Of a stretch of DNA of 64,000 nucleotides, positions 33,581 to 45,063 are shown piece by piece. The number at the start of each line of letters is the position of its first letter. Positions within the stretch are counted from its first letter, which is position 1. Made by a program: the position numbers and the translations under genes. The DNA comes from Mesorhizobium sp. (GTDB lineage: Bacteria; Pseudomonadota; Alphaproteobacteria; Rhizobiales; Rhizobiaceae), in the NCBI GenBank assembly GCA_004017275.1, contig SAKE01000015.1, positions 62,001-126,000 on the forward strand. The letters are read 5' to 3'. Under the pieces are notes generated by a model. It was not told the origin of the DNA and ran no database searches. It worked only from the letters and a program-made list of their open reading frames with translations.

Positions 33581-33722
33581 GTCGCAAAATCCGTCGAGAA
33601 CGCTTCCGCAGGGAAGCCGCAGCGGAAATACAAGCCGTAGCCCGCAATGTCGAGAGGTGAGAGCTGAGGACCAGGGCTGGCCGTTGACGCCGGCGCGCCA
33701 CGGCCCTAGAAGAGGTGACTTC

Positions 33723-33774
33723 CGTGGTGATTTGGCCGGTCGGCTTGCAGCCACGTTAAACAACTTGCTAAAGG
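33723..33774 (+). ncRNA. SAM-II riboswitch (metA/metX leader)
   Basis: CGTGGTGATTTGGCCGGTCGGCTTGCAGCCACGTTAAACAACTTGCTAAAG; P1 CGTGG/CCACG, GATTTGGCC...GCTTGCAGCCACGTTAAA...GCTAAA SAM-II signature; upstream of metX. Confidence 0.95.
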
Positions 33775-33790
33775 GCCGTTTGCATCCTGT

Positions 33791-33822
33791 AACCGGCTTT
33801 GCGATCGCAATGCCGGTTTTTT
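33791..33822 (+). terminator. intrinsic terminator downstream of the SAM-II aptamer
   Basis: AACCGGC-T-TTGCGA/TCGCAA-T-GCCGGTT followed by TTTT; near-perfect stem ending in a T-run. Confidence 0.85.
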
Positions 33823-44233: not shown

Positions 44234-44271
44234 GGCGGGGGACGACCGCCCTGGCCAACTTCTTGTTGGCC
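44234..44271 (+). terminator. two tandem hairpins after rpmB
   Basis: GGCGG...CCGCC then GGCCAAC-TTCTT-GTTGGCC; no U-tract. Confidence 0.5.
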
Positions 44272-44356: not shown

Positions 44357-44385
44357 CTGGTTCCATTACCCAGGATAAAAAAATG
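44357..44385 (+). ncRNA. preQ1-I-type riboswitch overlapping the start codon
   Basis: CTGGTTCCATTACCCAGGATAAAAAAATG; P1 CTGG/CCAG, conserved GGTTC and ACCC, A-rich tail GATAAAAAAA, P2 CAT(T):(A)ATG; directly upstream of a DUF165/YhhQ queuosine-precursor transporter. Confidence 0.85.
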
Positions 44386-45063
44386 ACTTCCTTCTCCCGA
44401 TATTTGCCATTCGTGGCCGCCATGGCGCTTGTCGTCGTAGCATCGAACATTCTCGTGCAGTTCCCGATGCAGGGCCAGATCGGCGGCCTGTCGCTGGCCG
44501 ACCTTTTGACCTGGGGCGCCTTCACCTACCCCTTCTCCTTCCTGGTCACCGACCTCGCCAACCGCCGCTACGGGCCTGCTGTGGCGCGCCGGATCGTCTT
44601 TGTCGGCTTCATGACAGCGGTGGTCTGCTCGATCCTCGTCCCGCCCTTCCTGTTCCGCCACGGCCTGATCGAATTTGAGACCGCCGCCGACCGGCTGGTG
44701 CGCATCGCGGCGGCGTCAGGCGCGGCGTTCCTTGCCGCGCAACTGCTGGATGTCACCGTGTTCAACCGGCTGCGCCAGCAGAGCTGGTGGCGGGCGCCGA
44801 TCGTCGGCACGCTGGTCGGATCGGTATTCGACACCGCCGTGTTCTTCACCGTCGCGTTCTCGGCTGCCTTTGCCTTCGCTGGTCCGAATGACAGCTTTGC
44901 GCTGGAAACCGCACCGCTGATGGGCGTGTTCCATATCGACGCCATGCGTTGGATTTCATGGGCGCTTGGCGATCTCTCGGTGAAACTGGTCATCGCCGTG
45001 GTGGCATTGATCCCCTACCGGCTGCTCGCCACCCGCTGGAGCCAGCCGGCGATCGCTGCTTAA
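44383..45063 (+). CDS. queuosine precursor transporter (YhhQ/DUF165 family)
   Basis: ORF 226 aa; multi-TM, ASNILVQFPMQGQIGGLSLADLLTWGAFTYPFSFLVTDLANRRYGP typical of the family. Confidence 0.93.
   Translation: MTSFSRYLPFVAAMALVVVASNILVQFPMQGQIGGLSLADLLTWGAFTYPFSFLVTDLANRRYGPAVARRIVFVGFMTAVVCSILVPPFLFRHGLIEFETAADRLVRIAAASGAAFLAAQLLDVTVFNRLRQQSWWRAPIVGTLVGSVFDTAVFFTVAFSAAFAFAGPNDSFALETAPLMGVFHIDAMRWISWALGDLSVKLVIAVVALIPYRLLATRWSQPAIAA

Follow-up and report, generated by a model that had tools for sequence, protein, structure and literature searches.

A probable type III-like preQ1-I riboswitch in Mesorhizobium that would take the start codon of its transporter gene into the pseudoknot

Can a metabolite riboswitch use the start codon of the gene it controls as one strand of the pseudoknot that closes its ligand pocket? 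This question is raised by a short leader in the window, i.e. the whole stretch of 64,000 nucleotides of Mesorhizobium sp. DNA that was analysed. The 29 nucleotides at 44357-44385 (CTGGTTCCATTACCCAGGATAAAAAAATG) lie directly 5' of a transporter gene and include its start, and they read in the window exactly in the order CTGG-TTCCATTAC-CCAG-GATAAAAAA-ATG, as the sequence-only reading had it from position 44357 onwards. We regard this element as very probably a translational preQ1-I riboswitch resembling type III, in which the loop triplet CAU pairs with the gene's own start codon to make P2, and in which the Shine-Dalgarno sequence (SD) AGGA overlaps the P1 3' strand. Its parts and the gene are as follows.

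44357-44385, plus strand: whole element, a probable preQ1-I aptamer resembling type III that includes the translation start; 22 of 29 columns invariant in the family
44357-44360, plus strand: P1 5' strand CTGG, pairing with 44370-44373; P1 covaries against the gammaproteobacterial type III set
44360, plus strand: G44360, counterpart of E. coli G5 in the pocket floor (role of G5-C15: PMC10622847)
44361-44369: loop TTCCATTAC
44361, plus strand: equivalent of U6 in L1, invariant in all loci; a ligand contact in the E. coli structure
44364-44366, plus strand: P2 5' strand CAU (positions 9-11), the anti-start-codon, invariant; A10-U29 here
44369, plus strand: equivalent of C14, the preQ1 specificity base (role: PMC10622847), invariant in the family loci
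44370-44373, plus strand: P1 3' strand CCAG
44372-44375, plus strand: Shine-Dalgarno sequence AGGA, overlapping the P1 3' strand and the start of L3; 7-nt spacer to the AUG
44374-44382, plus strand: L3 GATAAAAAA; A-tract length constant in most loci
44377-44382, plus strand: A-tract, predicted to lie in the minor groove of P1 and in the floor of the pocket (roles: PMC10622847)
44380-44382, plus strand: A25-A27 in the numbering of the E. coli crystal
44383-44385, plus strand: start codon AUG as predicted P2 3' strand (A28, U29, G30), in frame, no intervening stop
44383-45063, plus strand: queuosine-precursor (preQ0/preQ1) transporter of the YhhQ/COG1738/DUF165 family (PF02592, TIGR00697)

P1 is closed by G5-C15, and its GG/CC is invariant in the family as well as in the gammaproteobacterial set. 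The overlap of the SD with the P1 3' strand, which had been proposed from the letters, is borne out by these coordinates. In the loop, six of the seven positions 6-12 are pyrimidines, the purine being A10; TT occupies 44361-44362 in the window, where relatives with UG differ, and the AC ahead of the P1 3' strand corresponds to A44368 and C44369 (among 202 distinct leaders C14 is invariant and A13 present in 93%). P2 comprises three pairs between positions 9-11 and 28-30 (C-G, A-U and U-A), and the four to five adenines that type III carries before P2 are found in the A-tract at 44377-44382.

The ATG at 44383 starts an open reading frame of 226 amino acids ending at 45063, which scores 98.8 bits against PF02592 Vut_1 (cut-off 27.2) and 106.5 bits against TIGR00697, the queuosine precursor transporter model (cut-off 50.95). 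The downstream gene is thus, as had been assumed, a transporter for precursors of the tRNA base queuosine, and the yhhQ association typical of type III is present. The next gene upstream is rpmB (L28; 43926-44222), which lies directly 5' of the transporter in 247 of the 248 element-bearing loci; the same adjacency occurs in most loci of other families that have no element, hence this gene order is more widely spread than the riboswitch. An inverted repeat, GGCGG-GGGACGA-CCGCC, follows right after the rpmB stop at 44234-44250, with no T-run 3' of it in the window, and is also found in the leaders of many relatives. The genome encodes TGT and two QueC-family proteins. Relatives of the transporter were not found in viral contigs. 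The sole Rfam family above threshold in the window is SAM_alpha (SAM-II), a riboswitch at 33714-33791 on the plus strand with 77.4 bits, well above its gathering score.

Orthologous leaders were gathered by protein search within the genus, the family and the order. A loose pattern recovered the element from 248 of the 252 loci in the window's family, a set that is partly redundant because two collections overlap, and one of the four misses (L088) does carry it with a P1 mismatch; 11 loci from other families of the order lacked it by the same pattern. In a later set, 23 of 30 further family genomes carry the element. Over the 202 distinct leaders its columns show a mean identity of 96% with 22 of 29 invariant, compared with 35% and 47% in upstream stretches and 57% at downstream third codon positions of the same leaders. 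Variation falls on loop positions 7 and 8 (UC, GC or GG), on positions 12 and 13 and on a single base of L3, and neither CAU nor AUG varies at all. The alignment of orthologous leaders for which the sequence-only reading had called, with a view to invariance or covariation of CAT and ATG, therefore returned two invariant triplets next to variable neighbours at 7, 8, 12 and 13. Run against 249 genomes of the order, a pattern for the element matched once per genome and only in the window's family, and a reversed control pattern gave zero matches in the same 249 genomes. The element is real and far from a chance occurrence.

Among the sampled Alphaproteobacteria, the element is best read as confined to the window's family. 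A covariance model run over 385 genomes of the class returned the window alone as significant and no intermediate form in other alphaproteobacterial families; weaker matches had no transporter homologue nearby and looked like chance. A further pattern match with G10-U29 in another alphaproteobacterial family (L282) was dropped, since no transporter reading frame lies downstream of it. Several small genomes of 1.1-2.0 Mb (L389, L390, L392, L393, L395, L396) have lost the element or carry a degraded form of it, as have a few of larger size (L195, L202, L264, L367). In L393, from a genome of about 1.5 Mb, the leader reads CTGGTTCCATTACCAAGATTAAGAATG with a broken P1 3' strand and is apparently decaying, which makes it, judged by its sequence, a candidate for recent loss. 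Most of 28 checked family genomes have no QueC above the TIGR00364 cut-off, and all 28 have TGT, which suggests that many of them rely on an imported precursor. The idea that loss of the element tracks loss of preQ1 synthesis was rejected, because many genomes that lack QueC by this cut-off have the element, and some that possess QueC do not.

A match to the Rfam preQ1-I family RF00522 had been predicted and did not appear: in a scan of the window and seven comparison loci (gathering threshold 39 bits) the window gave none, even at E = 10. However, the same model also misses the E. coli yhhQ type III riboswitch, a crystallised RNA, so that the failed match is uninformative; RF00522 leaves out type III. 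The current Rfam model accordingly detects neither the rhizobial branch nor the type III riboswitch of E. coli. Thermodynamic folding of the region was no better than for shuffled sequence (z = 0.66), as expected for a structure made of a 4-bp hairpin plus a pseudoknot, and this result gives no support either. A more ordinary preQ1-I element with an AAGG tail was seen in another family of the order (genome G181, locus L129, 1501-1543, minus strand), with 35.2 bits against RF00522, i.e. under gathering.

When 399 genomes of the phylum were scanned with positions 10 and 29 left free, the pair 10-29 was C-G in the gammaproteobacterial matches followed to yhhQ and A-U in all matches of the window's family. 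When 13 rhizobial elements were aligned with 13 from Gammaproteobacteria, the seven pairs were formed in 100% of the cells; with the partner shifted by -3 to +3 columns the figure was at most 63%. Three pairs that the search pattern did not fix change on both sides, two in P1 (C-G/U-A/A-U and U-A/G-C) and one in P2 (A-U/C-G), but this covariation is mostly one split between the two groups and thus represents few evolutionary events; inside the family, P1 and P2 are nearly without variation. The change of G29 to U together with C10 to A turns AAAAAGG, a Shine-Dalgarno sequence, into AAAAAUG, a start codon.

Is the AUG of P2 then the start codon in use? An AGG at the junction of P1 and L3 occurs in 242 of 248 loci, and each of these 242 reads from the P2 AUG into the transporter frame without an intervening stop. 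Moreover, no alternative in-frame ATG, GTG or TTG precedes the conserved protein in 226 of the 243 loci with an in-frame P2 AUG. The six loci without the junction AGG look different. Five of them have an out-of-frame P2 AUG and, exactly 13 nt downstream, an ATG that is in frame and preceded by UGGA; the sixth has an in-frame P2 AUG and a GTG at +15. A seventh AGG-less locus from the later set (L380) again has an out-of-frame P2 AUG, with one ATG at +13 and another at +7. The association between AGG presence and AUG frame (242/242 versus 1/6) gives a Fisher p of 8e-10, uncorrected for phylogeny. In the AGG-less loci P1 can be extended to five or six pairs, as if, to go by the sequences, it had been released from supplying the SD. 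The P2 AUG is kept there though mostly not the start, which is expected if pairing with CAU is needed, and the true start of the out-of-frame loci is likely the ATG 13 nt downstream. These loci are best read as a natural swap between start-codon burial and Shine-Dalgarno burial. On the protein tree the six SD-type loci fall into two supported clades among AUG-type loci, i.e. a minimum of two changes, and a single origin is found in 4% of bootstrap trees. The earlier proposal that the start codon itself forms the P2 3' strand gains from all of this: CAU and AUG are invariant amid variable loop positions, the pair 10-29 is compensatory with respect to E. coli (C-G to A-U), and the AUG, always in frame where AGG is present, persists in the seven SD-less loci, in six of them out of frame.

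Other explanations have to be weighed against this. A conserved protein or small RNA site, or a constrained ribosome-binding site, would likewise leave a near-invariant short sequence at a start codon, but a ribosome-binding site needs neither the loop CAU nor C14 nor the P1 5' strand, and the position-by-position match to E. coli type III on a homologous gene, with compensatory changes, makes it very improbable that there is no riboswitch here at all. It is also hard to believe that the element is an ordinary SD-burying type III riboswitch with an incidental P2 AUG and a real start further downstream. The loci without an upstream SD do appear to be built in this way, with AUGGA as SD and the likely start 13 nt on; however, the AGG-bearing loci, with their P2 AUG consistently in frame, speak against it, as do the scarcity of other in-frame starts and the spacing of AGGA, which is correct for the P2 AUG.

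An unlikely alternative of a different kind would leave pseudoknot and start-codon burial unchanged and replace the ligand by preQ0, queuine or another 7-deazaguanine. Proteins of the transporter family move preQ0 and preQ1, some of them also queuine (PMC11570991), and the many family genomes without QueC above the cut-off may depend on import. Furthermore, some relatives have UGC rather than UUC at loop positions 6-8, and a large subgroup with TGGCAT loops (e.g. L204, L212, L231, L386) has UGG there, which alters residues adjoining the ligand. In the E. coli structure U7 and C8 form base triples (PMC10622847), so that UGC and UGG loops need another solution, and by analogy folding or ligand selection may differ in the UGG-loop elements. 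Against another ligand stand the equivalents of the E. coli residues that select preQ1 (G5, U6, C14 and A27), which are invariant, and the strong preference of the E. coli type III riboswitch for preQ1 over preQ0 (PMC10622847).

We hence return to a preQ1-responsive element that buries its own start codon. Alongside the observed conservation, fold-level covariation, reading frame, gene family and exchange between AUG and SD, we infer preQ1 as the ligand from the conserved pocket residues and the gene context, repression by the ligand from the architecture and the E. coli relative, and likewise affinity and direction of control. At low preQ1, the AUG and the A-rich tail would be free, the ribosome would reach AGGA and the transporter would be made. 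When preQ1 is abundant, it would dock on G44360/C44370 against C44369, the A-tract would lie in the P1 groove, and the AUG would be locked above the ligand as P2. The SD, held in P1 and the turn between P1 and L3, and the start codon would then both be closed, and uptake would stop. Overall, we consider it probable that this is a natural metabolite riboswitch in which the start codon serves as the pseudoknot strand forming the pocket ceiling, and that relatives switched, probably twice, to SD burial through a start shifted by 13 nt.

If this is true, sensor and translation initiation site coincide completely. Type III has been described as almost exclusively gammaproteobacterial and SD-burying (PMC10622847); the window's family extends it by a branch in Alphaproteobacteria, very well conserved, that would bury the start codon. 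The phrase 'start codon' is absent from this structure paper and from a review, both of which treat type III as SD-burying. A start-codon-sequestering riboswitch did not turn up in the titles and abstracts searched, to which the 2014 paper defining type III did not belong; alphaproteobacterial members may already be listed there. A recent review treats regulation independent of SD burial (PMC11625349). The related genomes, where the same aptamer appears to bury the start codon in some and the SD in others, offer a natural experiment, and the share of AUG occlusion in repression, as opposed to SD occlusion, becomes testable.

Among known systems, the sequence-only reading had taken the preQ1-I element of B. 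subtilis as its model. That type II element (RF00522) shares GGUUC, ACCC, the A-rich tail and the H-type pseudoknot, but it has a longer loop and acts through a transcriptional terminator, and in loop length and key residues the gammaproteobacterial yhhQ type III element fits better. The E. coli yhhQ leader, TTGGG-TTCCCTCAC-CCCAA-TGGTTAATC-AAAAAGG followed 6 nt later by the start codon, is the type III preQ1-I riboswitch that has been crystallised and whose KD is close to 58 nM (Schroeder et al. 2023, PMC10622847). Its contacts comprise the G5-C15 floor, U6, the specificity base C14 and A25-A27, its P2 pairs are U11-A28, C10-G29 and C9-G30 in crystal numbering, and the mutant U6C loses 35,000-fold in affinity (PMC10622847). 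Both elements have a 9-nt loop with U6, C9, U11 and C14, the G5-C15 floor, a short GC-rich P1, an A-rich L3 and a three-pair P2, and both precede a transporter of the same family in a translational arrangement. The published contact positions are identical except for C10 to A and G29 to U, and the only other loop change is at position 12, where the window has U and E. coli and many relatives have C. This likeness is one of sequence and fold and does not imply common descent, as no intermediates were found in other alphaproteobacterial families. The two differ in the P2 3' strand, AUG in the window with A10 compensating and AGG in E. coli, where this strand is the SD; in the window the SD is shifted upstream, to the P1 3' strand and L3, and a separate expression platform 3' of P2, as in E. 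coli, is missing. Since type III is characterised by a P2 3' strand that is the SD (AAGG) and AAUG stands here, we file the element as a variant and not as a plain member. Finally, it resembles direct-occlusion riboswitches such as SAM-II, in which aptamer and ribosome-binding site form one H-type pseudoknot (PMC10907184); SAM-II is described as burying the SD (PMC10907184), whereas in the window the 3' pseudoknot strand would be the start codon itself.
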